A stretch of 64,000 bases of DNA from assembly GCF_900129985.1 (NCBI RefSeq), contig NZ_FQXN01000001.1, forward strand, positions 124,001 to 188,000, read 5' to 3'. The DNA is from Thermosipho atlanticus DSM 15807 (GTDB lineage: Bacteria > Thermotogota > Thermotogae > Thermotogales > Fervidobacteriaceae). The translations under genes and the position numbers were made by a program. How positions within the stretch are numbered: the first letter of the stretch is position 1; each line of letters begins with the position of its first letter. Below are positions 55,991 through 62,484 of the stretch, piece after piece. The notes under the pieces are model-generated. The model had not been told where the DNA came from. It ran no database searches and saw nothing but the letters and a program-made list of their open reading frames with translations.

Positions 55991-56833
55991 ATGCGAACAA
56001 ATAAAGAAAGTGTTGTGAAACTTTCTATAATGGTAGGAGTTGCTCATCCTGTAACAAGAGTTCCTGTTCTGGACAAAGATGGAAATGTTTATTATTTCCC
56101 CGGAGTTGGTGGAATAACTTACAATTTTGGTCTAGGAGATAATGCGTTCAAGATGCATGGTGATCACATAGAACCTGATGTATCGGCAAAGAATAATGAC
56201 AAAAATTTTAATGATACTTGTATGTCTCTTGCATGTATTGGTAACAGTGCAGAAGTTGTTTCAGGTGATGCGAAAGGAATGAAAGGTTACGTAATAGGGA
56301 AACATGGAGGAATACAGCATATTTTGATTTATTTTGAAAATAAAGAAAAATTAATGATTGGTGACAAAATTTTAATAAAAGCTTGGGGGCAAGGATTAGA
56401 GCTTCTGGATTATCCTGATGTTAAAGTTTTTAACATTGATCCTGAGTTATTTGAAAGATTGCCAATAGAAGAAAGGTTTGGAAAAATCATTGTTCCTGTT
56501 GTTGCAGAAATTCCTGCTCATTTAACAGGATCAGGGATAGGAGCTTCTAATCCGATAAGTATGGACTATGATATAAATACTCATGATATGGAAGAGATTA
56601 GAAAATACCAAATTGATAAAATAAGAATAGGAGATATTGTAGCTATCAAAGATCACTATAATGGATACGGAATTGGTGGTTTTAGAAAAGGGGCTGTATC
56701 TATTGGGGTTGTTGTTCATTCAAATTGTATAAAGACTGGCCATGGCCCGGGAATAGTCGTTATAATGACCTCTCCTAATGATAGTATAATTACTGAAAAA
56801 GTGGATAAAATGAATATAAAAGATTATTTGTGA
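55991..56833 (+). CDS. DUF4438 protein (TM1086-like)
   Basis: The 280-residue cytoplasmic protein matches the DUF4438 family, for which I recall a structure from T. maritima (TM1086). Conserved patches are PFPGVGGITYNFGLGDNAF-like YYFPGVGGI, the LACIGNSAEVVSGDAKG loop, KHGGIQHI, and HLTGSGIGASNPISMDYDINTHD. The many His/Asp/Gly loops suggest a metal or nucleotide site, but the function is not known. It is monocistronic behind AAAGGGGAG and converges on the thiF-like gene with a 10-nt overlap. Confidence 0.88.
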   Translation: MRTNKESVVKLSIMVGVAHPVTRVPVLDKDGNVYYFPGVGGITYNFGLGDNAFKMHGDHIEPDVSAKNNDKNFNDTCMSLACIGNSAEVVSGDAKGMKGYVIGKHGGIQHILIYFENKEKLMIGDKILIKAWGQGLELLDYPDVKVFNIDPELFERLPIEERFGKIIVPVVAEIPAHLTGSGIGASNPISMDYDINTHDMEEIRKYQIDKIRIGDIVAIKDHYNGYGIGGFRKGAVSIGVVVHSNCIKTGHGPGIVVIMTSPNDSIITEKVDKMNIKDYL

Positions 56834-57510
56834 TCTTTGATTCCTTTCACGTTTATTATTTCAAAATCATTATGAAGAATGTCAAAAAATAATATCTTAT
56901 TTAATAATGCGTCCTCGAAATTTCCTTCAAGAATTTTTAGACCTTCGGATACTTGAAAAGAAGCTGCAATTAATACTGTAGGAGGGATTACTTGCCAACA
57001 TTGGGTAGAATAATATCCTAAGAAAATCTCTTTTAGAGATTTAGTTATTCCTGGGTATATTACTGTTATTTCACCTCTATACTCTTCTACAGAACCATGA
57101 ATCAAAGGCACTTTGTACTTTAATGAAAGTTCATCGAGATCGAATCTGCTTTCAGTATTATCAAGGCAATCAAAGATTATGTCAAAATGTTTGTTTAATT
57201 TTGTGTGTTTGGTAATTTTTTCAGGAAATATATCTATATTACACTCGGGATTAATTTTCAACAATTTTTCTTTAGCAACTTGTACTTTGCTTTTTCCAAT
57301 ATCAGTGCTATCAAATAATATTTGTCTATTTAAGTCTGGGGGATCTATTTCTTTTGGATCATAAATTGTTATGTTTTTGAATCCAATTCTTACTAGATTT
57401 TGCAGAACTGTTGAACCAAGTCCTCCAGCACCTGCAACAAGAATGTTGCTGTTTTTTATTTTATGTGATAATTTTTGATATAGTTTTATATGCCTTGATA
57501 CATCTAACAT
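56824..57510 (-). CDS. ThiF/MoeB/HesA-like E1 adenylyltransferase without zinc cysteines
   Basis: The 228-residue protein has the E1 core: ATP site VAGAGGLGSTVLQNL (residues 25-39), DPPDLNRQILFD with the Arg finger, and DCLDNTESRF. The two CxxC zinc motifs of MoeB/ThiF are missing. The remaining candidate is a lone Cys in YSTQCWQVIPP, with SEGLKILEG after it. It would adenylate the C-terminal Gly of the MoaD-like protein encoded one base overlap upstream (TAATG). It is the last gene of the hydF operon. Its role could be sulfur transfer for molybdopterin/tungstopterin, thiamine, or a new target. Confidence 0.87.
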   Translation of the reverse strand: MLDVSRHIKLYQKLSHKIKNSNILVAGAGGLGSTVLQNLVRIGFKNITIYDPKEIDPPDLNRQILFDSTDIGKSKVQVAKEKLLKINPECNIDIFPEKITKHTKLNKHFDIIFDCLDNTESRFDLDELSLKYKVPLIHGSVEEYRGEITVIYPGITKSLKEIFLGYYSTQCWQVIPPTVLIAASFQVSEGLKILEGNFEDALLNKILFFDILHNDFEIINVKGIKDHK

Positions 57511-57797
57511 TATCCACCACCTACCGGCATGATTATAGATAAATCGCCGTCTTCCAATTGTTCCTTTTTTAAAATATTTTCGCCGTTGTTGTGAATCACA
57601 ACGGAAAATCTTAATTCCTTACCATTTTCTTTTAAGACAACAAAAGTTTTATTGTTTTCTTTGTCGATTATAAAATTAAGAGTTTTACCAATTTTTTTAC
57701 TTATTTCTTTGAAAATATCATCTAAATTGCCAAAATTAACTTCTAACTCCTTTATTCCAATTAAATATCTTATACCTCCAATAAAATTCACCTTCAT
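57510..57797 (-). CDS. MoaD/ThiS-like sulfur-carrier protein
   Basis: The 95-residue beta-grasp protein ends in ...LSIIMPVGGG. The Gly-Gly end is the activation site of sulfur carriers; here three Gly stand at the terminus, one more than the usual GG. The pattern GEN..LKKEQLEDGDLSIIMP is the MoaD beta-grasp end. I set the start at ATG 57797, spaced from GAGGTG; upstream in-frame GTG/ATG codons lie in that site. It follows aspA by about 10 nt and precedes the E1-like gene with overlap. Confidence 0.88.
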   Translation of the reverse strand: MKVNFIGGIRYLIGIKELEVNFGNLDDIFKEISKKIGKTLNFIIDKENNKTFVVLKENGKELRFSVVIHNNGENILKKEQLEDGDLSIIMPVGGG

Positions 57798-57807
57798 TTT
57801 CATCACC

Positions 57808-59172
57808 TCAAAATCCTAATTTTGTCAGTTTTTCTGGCTTAATTTTTTTAATAATTTCGTCTTTAGAAATATTTTCGGTTTTAGAGAGCAATTCAATAGC
57901 TTTAAAAAGGTCATAATTTGCTTCTTTAATTGCCTTTGATACCTTTTCATATCCAAATAGGTTAATTAATGGAGTAAGATTAGAAACAGATTTTCTTAGA
58001 TTTTCTTCACATTTTTCTTCGTTTACTTTTATTTTATTTATATATTCGGCAAGAGAAAAACAAGAATTTTTTAAGAATTTAATTGATTTTAGTGTGTAAT
58101 GTACGATAATAGGAGCAAATTGATTTAATTCAAGATTTCCTTGAGAACACGCATGATTTATTAGACTATCATGTGAAAAAACTGCTAAAGATAGTTGTAT
58201 AACATATTCTGGGATTATAGGATTAATTTTTCCTGGCATTATTGAGCTACCTATTTGTATTGGGGGAAGAATCAACTCGCCAATTGCAGTATTAGGGCCA
58301 CTTGCAAGTAACCTTATATCGTTAGAAATTTTGAATAAGTTTACTGCTAAAGATTTTAAAAGCCCATGAACTTCTGCGAACACGTCCATGTTTTGAGTTG
58401 CATCAATTAAATTATCAGCTTTAGCAACTTTTATTTTAGTAACTTGTCTAAGAATTTCTACTATTTTGAGTATATAATCTTTGGGCGCTCCGATACCTGT
58501 TCCAATGGCTGTACCACCGAGATTAACATTTCTAATTCTTTCTTCAACTTTATTCAATCTCCATCGATCCCTAGCAAGAGCATCAGCCCATGCTCCAAAT
58601 TCCTGACCTAACATAATTGGTGGCCCATCCATCAATTGTGTCCTTCCAACTTTTCTTATTTTATAGTATTCATGTTCTTTTTTTTGAATGGTATCTTGTA
58701 AAATAATTACTTGTTCTATTAATTCTCTTAGTCTTGAAATTACAGCTACTTTGCCTGCGGTTGTAAATGTGTCATTTGTTGATTGATGCATGTTTACATG
58801 TTCAATAGGTTTTATGTAACCAATTTCTTTCCCTATAAGTTGAGAAGCTCTATTGGCAATTACTTCGTTTATGTTCATATTGACGGAAGTTCCAGCTCCG
58901 CCAGATAAAGGATCAACAATTATATGTTTTATTAACATTTTCCATTCATCGGTTGCCTTAATAATTGCGTTGGCAATATTTTCATCAAGATAGTTCAATT
59001 CTTTATTTAAGATTGCTGCAGACTTTTTTATCATAAAATATGCCCATAAAAACTTTTCATCAAATTGTTCTCCAGTTATAGGAAATATTTCTGTTGCTCT
59101 TAATGAACTGATACCATACAAAGCATTATCTGGAATTTCTCTTTCACCTAAATAATCACGTTCTTTTCTCAA
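57808..59172 (-). CDS. aspA: Aspartate ammonia-lyase (fumarase/aspartase family)
   Basis: The 454-residue enzyme has the superfamily motif [11 protein letters not shown] (residues about 308-318), the substrate loops [13 protein letters not shown] and [10 protein letters not shown], and HxxS-type catalytic region near 140. It would release ammonia from aspartate to fumarate; class II fumarase is the alternative, but the sequence TSVNMNINE fits aspartase. The ATG overlaps the hydF stop (4 nt), so it is translationally coupled to hydrogenase maturation. I recall similar aspA-hyd gene pairs in other anaerobes. Confidence 0.88.
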
Positions 59173-60377
59173 AATTCCACTTCCCTTGATATCAGTGGTT
59201 TAATAGTTCTGTCTAGTACTCCATGAAGATAAGAAATAACTACGCCATAATTTGTCATAGGAATTCCAAGCCTCTTAAACATTCTTACTCTTCTCATCAT
59301 TGAAGCTCTGTTCATAACACATCCGCCGCAGTGGATTATAAGTTTTGCATCTTCAATTTCTGAAAGTTCAGGCATATCTACACCAGCCCAAACTTTGAAT
59401 TCTAAAGAAACACCTGTGTGATTGGTCAACCATCTTGGAATTTTTATCCTTCCAATATCTTCGGTTAGAGGTCTATGAGTACATCCTTCCATTATTATTA
59501 CTTTGTCACCATCTTTTAGTTTTTCAATTTCTTTAACGCTTTCAATAAAGTATTCTAAATCTCCCCTATATCTTGATTCCAAGATTGAGAAAGTTGTTAA
59601 AGGTACATTGTCAGGAATATCTGAAACAACTTTCATTACACTTTGGGAGTCTGTAACAACTAATTTTGGTTGTATACCAATGTTTTCAATAGCGTATCTT
59701 AATTCTCTTTCTTTTACGACAAGAACTAAAGCCTCACGGTCTAATCCTTCCCTTATTGCGTGAACTTGCGGCATTATTAATCTTCCTTTAGGAGCTCCAA
59801 GATCAATAGGTACAACTAGTATAACTAGCTCTCCACCATCAATTAAATCTGATAAAAATGGAATTTCTTCATCTTCAGGGATAATTTCGTGAAGGATTTT
59901 GCCCAAATTTTCAAATCCTTCTTTTTTAAGTGAAGATACAGTAATAATGGGCACATTGTATTTTGAATAACTTTCTTTTATTTTTTCGACATTTTTTAAT
60001 ATATCTATCTTATTTATTACTATGATAAAAGGAATTTCAAGATTTTCGAAAAGTTTGATTATATTTTCCTCAAAAGTTGTGAGTAGAGAATCAACTATCA
60101 GTATTCCTGCGTCTGCTCTATATAATATCTTTTTTGCCTTTTCGATTCTTTTTAAACCTAGTTCTCCTACATCATCTAGTCCTGGTGTGTCAATAAAAGT
60201 GATTGGTCCAACGGGATAAAGTTCCATAGTTTTAAATACAGGATCGGTAGTTGTACCTGCAACATTGCTTACAATTGAGATATTTTGGCCAATTAAAGCA
60301 TTAAGAAATGAGGATTTTCCTACGTTTCTTTTTCCAGCTATTACTATATATTTTCTAAATCCCGAACTTGTTTTCAT
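59169..60377 (-). CDS. hydF: [FeFe]-hydrogenase maturation GTPase HydF
   Basis: The 402-residue protein is the scaffold that assembles the 2Fe subcluster of the H-cluster. It has an N-terminal GTPase domain with P-loop [16 protein letters not shown] and NKID. The C-terminal Fe-S site is CTH (Cys299, His301) with HCGGC (His349, Cys350, Cys353), giving the family CxH-x47-HCxxC spacing. HydE, HydG and the hydrogenase are not in the window. It heads a four-gene operon with aspA, moaD-like and thiF-like genes. Confidence 0.95.
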
Positions 60378-60636
60378 ATAATCACCTCTGTAATTGCTTT
60401 CATTTCAATTATACCAAATAGTTTAAAATAAGTAAATTAGATTTGAGTAATCTCAAAAAGTTGCTGAGTGAAAAAATATAATTTTAAGACAATTATGTTA
60501 TAATCAAATAAATAGAAAATTGATTTAACAATTTTATTCTCAGTTGAAGGATTAAACAATTCAAATATGCAATTTTCGTTTCTAATTACTGGTAGAGAGG
60601 TATATGAAAAAGAATTTTGTTTGGGGAGGTGGAGAA

Positions 60637-62484
60637 ATGAGGAAAGTATATTTGATAGTTTTAAATGTAATTTTTTTAGGTTTTATACTTGTGGGTTGTT
60701 TTTCTGTAAAAACTTACCACAAACAACCAACATACGTTTATGCCGCAGGTGGGCTTGAAGGTTTGATAATTTTTGATGTTACAAATTCTAATAATCCAAT
60801 TATTGTTGGAAGCTATAACACTGAGGGTTACTTATGTGCAGTAGATGTTATTGAAGATTATGCATATGTTGCAGATGGTAACAATGGATTATTAATTATA
60901 GATATAACAGTTCCTACAAATCCAAATTTTGTAGGGGCTATTGATACAATTGGTTATGCTAAGGATGTAAAAGTTGTAGAAAATTATGCGTTCGTAGCAG
61001 AAAATAATAAAGGTTTTGAGATCGTAGACATTAGTGATTTGACAAATCCAACAATAGTTGGTGGCTATGATACAGATGGTTATTCATCAGGTATAGACAT
61101 TGTTGGTGATTATGCATATGTTGCAGATGGTAACAATGGATTAGTAATAGTAAATATTAGTAATTTAACTAATCCTGTTCTATCTGGTCATTTTAAATTA
61201 AAAGGTGCTCATAAGGTTGTTGTTAAAGATGATTATGCATATGTTGGTAGTTTTGATGGTTTGATGATAATCGATGTGAGTGATCCTACTAATCCTTCAA
61301 CCGCTAGTATTCTCAACATGGAAAGCGAAGGTTATGAAATTGAGATTATTGGAGATTACGCGTACATAGCAAATGATGAAAGTGGTTTAGTAATAGTGGA
61401 TGTTAGTAACCCTACTAGTCCAATGATAGTTGGTAACTATGATGTGAGGGGTTATTCATTTGGAATAGATGTTATTGGAAATTATGTATACTTAGCTGAT
61501 GAAGTAGAAGGGCTTGTAATAGTGAATGTTAGCGATCCCACAAATCCTTTTTTAGAAGTTGTTAAAGGGTTTGGTAAAGCTAATAAAGTGATTGTAGAAG
61601 GGAATTATGCATATGTAGCTGATGATTATGACGGATTAAAGTTAATAGATATTTCTGAGCCTTTTAAACCTTTTGTAATGAGTGGTGTTTGGATGTCAGG
61701 AAATACATTGGATGTAAAAATTATTGGAAATTACGCATATGTGGTAAATAACGAAAATGATTTAGTAATAGTAAATGTTAGTGATCCTGCTAGTCTAATT
61801 GTAGTTGCTAGCTATGATGTAACAGGTTATCCGAATAGTCTGGATGTTGTTGGGAGCTACGCATATGTAATTAATAACTATAGTGTATTAAATATTATTG
61901 ATATTGGCGATTTAAGCAATGTAGCTCTTTTAGGTAATTGTAATACAGGTGGAAGTGCCAGGAATGTTAAAGTAGTAGGAAATTATGCGTATATTGCTGA
62001 TGGAAATAACGGATTAACTATAATAGATATTAGTATACCTACCAATCCTACAATTGTAGGAAATTATAGTGAACCAATAGGATATGGTGTTAATATAGAT
62101 GTAGTTGGGGAGTATGCCTATTTAGCGTATGATTATTATGGTTTAAAAATAATAAATATAGCTGTTCCAACTAATCCAACATTAGTAAAGACTTTTGATA
62201 CCCCTGGGAATGTTAGAGATATTAAAGTAGTAGGAAATTATGCGTATATTGCTGATGGTAACAACGGTTTAGTTATTTTAGATATAAGTGATCCAACGAA
62301 TACAAGCTTGGTAAGTAATTATGACACAGAAGGTTACTCATCAGGCATATATGTGGAAGGGAACTATGCTTATGTTGCTGATGGTAACAACGGATTGTTG
62401 ATTTTTGATGTAAGCACTCCATCTGAACCAGATTTAATATCGGATATGGAATGGATTAAAATTTTAGATGTTTGCGCTCAATGA
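60637..62484 (+). CDS. LVIVD-repeat lipoprotein, 14 beta-propeller-type repeats
   Basis: The 615-residue protein has a lipoprotein signal ending in LVGCFS, then 14 repeats of about 42 residues with the pattern NYAYVADGNNGLxIxDxSxPTNP. Fourteen is twice seven, so two seven-bladed propellers are likely. The signal places it on the cell envelope. The ATG at 60637 follows GGGGAGGTGG; an upstream in-frame ATG would lengthen the signal. DNA of some repeats is nearly identical (for example 36 bases at 60856 and 61109), a sign of recent homogenisation. Function is unknown; LVIVD proteins may bind surface sugars or proteins. Confidence 0.9.
   Translation: MRKVYLIVLNVIFLGFILVGCFSVKTYHKQPTYVYAAGGLEGLIIFDVTNSNNPIIVGSYNTEGYLCAVDVIEDYAYVADGNNGLLIIDITVPTNPNFVGAIDTIGYAKDVKVVENYAFVAENNKGFEIVDISDLTNPTIVGGYDTDGYSSGIDIVGDYAYVADGNNGLVIVNISNLTNPVLSGHFKLKGAHKVVVKDDYAYVGSFDGLMIIDVSDPTNPSTASILNMESEGYEIEIIGDYAYIANDESGLVIVDVSNPTSPMIVGNYDVRGYSFGIDVIGNYVYLADEVEGLVIVNVSDPTNPFLEVVKGFGKANKVIVEGNYAYVADDYDGLKLIDISEPFKPFVMSGVWMSGNTLDVKIIGNYAYVVNNENDLVIVNVSDPASLIVVASYDVTGYPNSLDVVGSYAYVINNYSVLNIIDIGDLSNVALLGNCNTGGSARNVKVVGNYAYIADGNNGLTIIDISIPTNPTIVGNYSEPIGYGVNIDVVGEYAYLAYDYYGLKIINIAVPTNPTLVKTFDTPGNVRDIKVVGNYAYIADGNNGLVILDISDPTNTSLVSNYDTEGYSSGIYVEGNYAYVADGNNGLLIFDVSTPSEPDLISDMEWIKILDVCAQ

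Follow-up and report, generated by a model that had tools for sequence, protein, structure and literature searches.

The 64,000-nucleotide (nt) window analyzed in this study (Thermosipho atlanticus DSM 15807, contig NZ_FQXN01000001.1, positions 124,001 to 188,000) contains a real string of four genes on the minus strand, in the order hydF-aspA-moaD-thiF. They encode the [FeFe]-hydrogenase maturation GTPase HydF, an aspartase-like lyase, a MoaD-like sulfur carrier and an E1-like adenylyltransferase, respectively (Table 1). The last two (hereafter the pair) most likely represent an ordinary carrier/E1 pair for the molybdenum/tungsten (Mo/W) pterin cofactor at an unusual address. The hydF and aspA genes overlap by 4 nt (TTGA), 10 nt separate aspA from the ATG of moaD at 57797, and moaD and thiF overlap by 1 nt (TAATG), in agreement with the order, strand and spacings given in an earlier, sequence-only reading of this DNA. 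The moaD open reading frame reaches further upstream with an alternative GTG start (57510-57806); the ATG was preferred because the protein length in relatives points there. At the downstream end, the 3' ends of thiF and of a gene for a DUF4438 protein overlap by 10 nt. Promoter and terminator scans remained near chance level.

Table 1. The hydF-aspA-moaD-thiF genes and their convergent neighbour (positions refer to the window; aa, amino acids)
Feature	Position	Strand	Characteristics
hydF, [FeFe]-hydrogenase H-cluster maturation GTPase	59169-60377	-	TIGR03918; HydF dimer and tetramer domains; 5kh0
aspA-like aspartate ammonia-lyase	57808-59172	-	TTG start; NF008909; best PDB matches are aspartases
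MoaD-like beta-grasp sulfur carrier	57510-57797	-	95 aa from ATG 57797; C-terminus PVGGG
E1-like adenylyltransferase, ThiF/MoeB superfamily, zinc-less	56824-57510	-	PF00899; MoeB and ThiF PDB matches
DUF4438 protein, convergent neighbour outside the operon	55991-56833	+	PF14505 and PF20999; marks the downstream end

HydF scores well above the equivalog cut-off of TIGR03918 (520 vs. 325 bits), contains the GTPase, dimer and tetramer domains with a visible CxH...HCxxC cluster motif, and has 5kh0 as its best match in the PDB (E-value 9e-215). The aspartase-like lyase exceeds the curated aspartase model NF008909 (570 bits, cut-off 510) and stays below the cut-off of the stricter TIGR00839 (416 vs. 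681 bits). It carries the GSSxMPxKxNP loop signature, and aspartases are its top PDB matches. Judged by these models and motifs, both proteins can be regarded as secure members of their families.

The MoaD-like protein reaches no Pfam cut-off, nor do the MoaD/ThiS family models recognize it (TIGR01687, 28 bits, cut-off 49.5). When 13 relatives were combined into a profile, Ta0895, MoaD and a SAMP1 homologue were recovered from the PDB (E-values from 3e-5 to 5e-4), and the best structure matches of the carrier are thus related to MoaD and SAMP1, not to ThiS. Of 15 aligned sequences, 14 end in GG, and the one that does not is frameshifted. The E1 is clearly a ThiF-fold protein (PF00899, 188 bits, cut-off 28), with MoeB and ThiF among its PDB matches, and it keeps the adenylation motifs GxGGLGS and DLNRQ and the downstream D residue. 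It falls below the moeB/thiF equivalog cut-offs (TIGR02355, 103 vs. 377 bits; TIGR02356, 124 vs. 275 bits). The zinc CxxC pair is absent, as in all aligned relatives but the Zn-type protein of genome G094. Both the missing zinc motifs and the three terminal glycines of the carrier (PVGGG) had been described correctly from the sequence. A scan of a contig collection with the E1 as query returned a single distant match and was uninformative beyond the phylum.

Further genes for the Mo/W cofactor are located on another contig (C4) of the same genome (G000), where a mogA-moaC-moaA-wtpBCA-MOSC block is found with moeA divergent from it (L123, 8093-14174). The binding protein of this block passes the tungstate-specific WtpA model TIGR03730. 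The locus holds no moaD, moaE or moeB of its own, a situation that the sequence-only reading had named in advance as speaking against its proposal of a hydrogenase-related sulfur role for the pair. A single ThiF-family protein, the E1 of the window, was found in the genome; a search for further ThiS/MoaD proteins gave no match, with a model that also misses the MoaD of the window. MoaA, MoaC, MoeA and MogA are present and MoaE was not found, so that the canonical molybdopterin pathway is not complete. As likely users of the cofactor we found three xanthine dehydrogenase (XDH)-type molybdoenzymes (MoCoBD). Aldehyde:ferredoxin oxidoreductase (AOR) was rejected as a user in this genome, since PF01314 and PF00384, the models used for AOR and dimethyl sulfoxide reductase-type enzymes, give no match. 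A tungstopterin role, mentioned earlier as the ordinary alternative, therefore fits the pair better than a role in hydrogenase maturation, but the enzymes served would be of the XDH type rather than AOR, and MoaE is missing.

Presence and absence of these genes were scored over 103 genomes of the phylum (38 genera), and Fisher tests were performed at the genome level and then collapsed to genera, with no further phylogenetic correction. Of the 38 pair-bearing genomes, 27 also have moaA (p 1e-10; at the genus level 11/13, p 2e-5) and 30 have moaC (p 6e-13). Its association with hydF is weaker than that with moaA at the genome level (p 8e-4) and not significant at the genus level (p 0.12). Four genomes encode the pair without a HydF above the cut-off (G031, G084, G098, and G099), and 37 encode HydF without the pair. 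The distribution of the pair follows moaA/moaC rather than hydF, which argues against a role as an H-cluster maturation factor. In several genera, moaD-thiF directly adjoins the AOR gene; in G058, this arrangement is followed by a block of moaA, moaC, mogA and tungstate transporter genes.

The two halves of the string also recur separately. Several families have hydF-aspA and lack the pair; conversely, moaD-thiF recurs as two closely spaced genes that mostly lie at a distance from hydF. All four genes come together in one family only, and the conserved co-occurrence that the first reading had proposed to look for among relatives is limited accordingly. Within this family, the order hydF-aspA-moaD-thiF is shared by G000, G017, G018, and G019. 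Genome G015 has the same location with both moaD and thiF frameshifted, and G016 has the swapped order moaD-thiF-hydF-aspA with a 94-nt gap; a tandem-duplication relic behind this swap was searched for with tblastn and none was found. In G012, G013, and G014 the pair is located elsewhere than hydF-aspA. In the more distant G036 (L094), an AOR-linked moaD-thiF is separated by a few genes from hydF-aspA and lies on the opposite strand; this does not constitute an operon. Because the E1 tree groups the copies of the family in a single well-supported clade, whose first branch is G019, the four-gene linkage looks like a single ancestral arrangement that was later broken or rearranged.

This linkage is what makes a shared function with HydF tempting. 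According to the sequence-only reading, the aspartase could supply ammonium, and the MoaD/ThiF pair could supply or protect sulfur, for the 2Fe subcluster on HydF. The first part is supported and was already published: the position of aspA beside hydF is established by bioinformatics, and in vitro addition of AspA brings 15N of aspartate into the dithiomethylamine bridge, as seen by 15N electron nuclear double resonance (15N-ENDOR) (PMC11736057). In the published couplet, aspA is likewise immediately next to hydF, whereas MoaD/ThiF has zero occurrences in the main text of that paper, unlike the situation here (Pagnier et al., 2024; PMC11736057). The second part can point to the tight gene spacing, to the linkage in G000, G017, G018, and G019 as well as in the decayed G015 and the swapped G016, and to the fact that G016 and G017 kept the pair beside hydF after loss of the moa genes. 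It is opposed by the non-significant co-occurrence with hydF across genera and the 4 and 37 genomes with one partner only, and by the pair lying apart from hydF in G012-G014 and in every other family examined. In the current model, moreover, the HydG synthon brings in the sulfur of the 2Fe unit with its cysteine. Defined in vitro maturation works with HydE, HydF, HydG, the glycine-cleavage proteins, serine hydroxymethyltransferase (SHMT) and small molecules, and requires no carrier or E1. In the literature searched, no paper names HydF together with MoaD. We rejected the H-cluster sulfur role on the distribution and this published chemistry and consider it highly improbable. This takes an attractive but unsupported step out of H-cluster biosynthesis.

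We instead favour, with a probability of roughly 0.72, the reading that two independent couplets became neighbours in one family and that MoaD-ThiF serves the Mo/W pterin. It builds on the gene identities, on catalytic motifs that are intact, on a moa/moe/wtp locus elsewhere in the genome that has neither moaD nor moeB, on the single E1 found in the genome, on the co-distribution with moaA/moaC and on the AOR adjacency in relatives. It also agrees with G012 and G015, which lack moaA/moaC and in which frameshifts have hit moaD and thiF but spared hydF-aspA. The chemistry is inferred, as is which protein acts as the MoaE-like partner. On the hydrogenase side, HydF and AspA would mature the [FeFe]-hydrogenase, with AspA as the ammonium source for the dithiomethylamine bridge assembled on HydF. 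On the pterin side, the E1 would adenylate the C-terminal glycine of MoaD, which a cysteine desulfurase or sulfide would convert to a thiocarboxylate. The MoaD sulfur would then enter cyclic pyranopterin, the product of MoaA and MoaC from the C4 locus, to yield the dithiolene of the Mo/W pterin, and the finished cofactor would serve the XDH-type enzymes of the genome.

Several observations weigh against this reading, in addition to the limited phylogenetic correction. Six genomes have MoaA but not the pair. The control genomes matched as expected, but MoaE was found in 0 of the 103, although 33 of these encode MoaA and 39 AOR; the pterin pathway of the phylum is thus incomplete by textbook standards. 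The genome paper of T. thermarum could likewise find neither moaD nor moaE (PMC4148951). The seven moa blocks examined (L123, L125, L126, L127, L128, L129, and L130), from G000, G019, G058, G062, G068, G076, and G083, each encode a stand-alone MOSC protein (about 150 aa), which by this position could be a candidate for the missing MoaE step. The moa block and the pair do not share a simple history either. The moa block of this genus (g1) stands at 69% (MoaA) and 80% (MoaC) against g32, which belongs to another family, and at 44 and 56%, respectively, against G019 of its own family. This closer relation to g32 suggests horizontal acquisition of the block, whereas the pair was inherited vertically.

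The remaining counter-evidence comes from genomes of the family without moaA and without intact moaC. Three of them (G014, G016, and G017) have an intact pair. In G016, the moa block is cleanly absent, with a clean junction (L158, 4188-4300) at the site that it occupies in G000 and G018, and the branch of its E1 is no longer than that of its moa-bearing sister G018 (0.14 vs. 0.20). In G017, the moa-wtp-moeA block is eroded (L133, 8396-11388), the tail of moaC being fused to wtpA and moeA being broken. Both the absent and the eroded block belong between glmS and an amino-acid ATP-binding cassette (ABC) transporter. Since the pair is intact in these three genomes, a second sulfur-transfer role is possible; recent loss of moa is the other possible explanation. 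As a side observation, XDH-type molybdoenzymes (at least two per genome, with open frames) persist in G012-G015, G016, and G017, and one of these moa-less genomes is a single contig.

A general ubiquitin-like carrier/E1 system with a pterin-independent task, most likely tRNA 2-thiolation in the style of TtuB/TtuC or UblA/UbaA and possibly besides the pterin role, would account for the intact pairs of G014 and G017 and for the unaccelerated E1 of G016, and one ubiquitin-like protein of Thermococcus indeed serves several pathways (PMC11323500). Against it, the pair is frameshifted in G012 and G015 and missing in many relatives whose tRNA is presumably still thiolated, the loss of moa in G017 may be recent, and no tRNA-thiolase neighbour was seen beside the pair. 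We regard this explanation as rather unlikely. A more elaborate proposal is that a second, pterin-independent sulfur role kept the linkage with hydF-aspA after moa loss (G016 and G017) and that, separately, the phylum makes molybdopterin with MoaD and a partner other than MoaE, perhaps the MOSC protein; taken as a whole, this is a long shot.

The pair could finally be a relic that is being lost in the family and is kept by chance or by polar coupling to hydF-aspA. In G012 and G015, moaD and thiF are both frameshifted, whereas hydF and aspA are intact. In G013, which also lacks moaA and moaC and counts against the pterin reading, one additional base in a run of G fuses MoaD to ThiF (L067, 7699-8652), a possible sequencing error; such a fusion would block the GG terminus. 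The MoaD of G017 evolves faster and has diverged. The pair is decayed in G012 and G015 and intact in G014, G016, and G017, so that some genomes can do without it and others retain it although the pterin pathway is gone. The genes of the window, on the other hand, keep the catalytic motifs and the GG terminus, pairwise ratios of nonsynonymous to synonymous rates (dN/dS) of the E1 are about 0.09-0.25 (indicative only, as dS is largely saturated), and the genome still has its moa locus and XDH-type enzymes, which makes a relic very improbable.

Known systems offer partial parallels to the pterin reading. As in the MoaD/MoeB system of molybdopterin biosynthesis, the pair combines a GG-ending beta-grasp carrier with an adenylating E1 while moaA, moaC, mogA and moeA lie elsewhere, but here the E1 has no zinc CxxC pairs, MoaE was not found and MoaD scores below the family cut-off. 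AOR-linked MoaD-MoeB gene clusters for the tungsten cofactor have been described (Genome Biol. 2006; PMC1779556), and relatives in our set share the MoaD-E1 adjacency beside AOR, sometimes with moaA; the pair here differs in adjoining hydF-aspA, in a genome in which neither AOR nor MoaE was found. TtuB/TtuC of Thermus and the archaeal SAMP/UbaA are likewise carrier/E1 pairs of thermophiles that can in principle serve several pathways, whereas no sign of tRNA thiolation or protein conjugation was seen for the pair here. The pair thus adds a candidate MoaD and E1 for the phylum of T. thermarum, whose genome paper had reported no moaD. If MoaE is truly absent, the AOR- and XDH-bearing bacteria of this phylum need another molybdopterin synthase subunit, and this phylum-wide gap is a more interesting loose end than the unusual address of the pair.

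On the other side of the string, divergent from hydF, the window encodes a 626-aa protein of LVIVD beta-propeller repeats (13 stretches; 60604-62484, plus strand).

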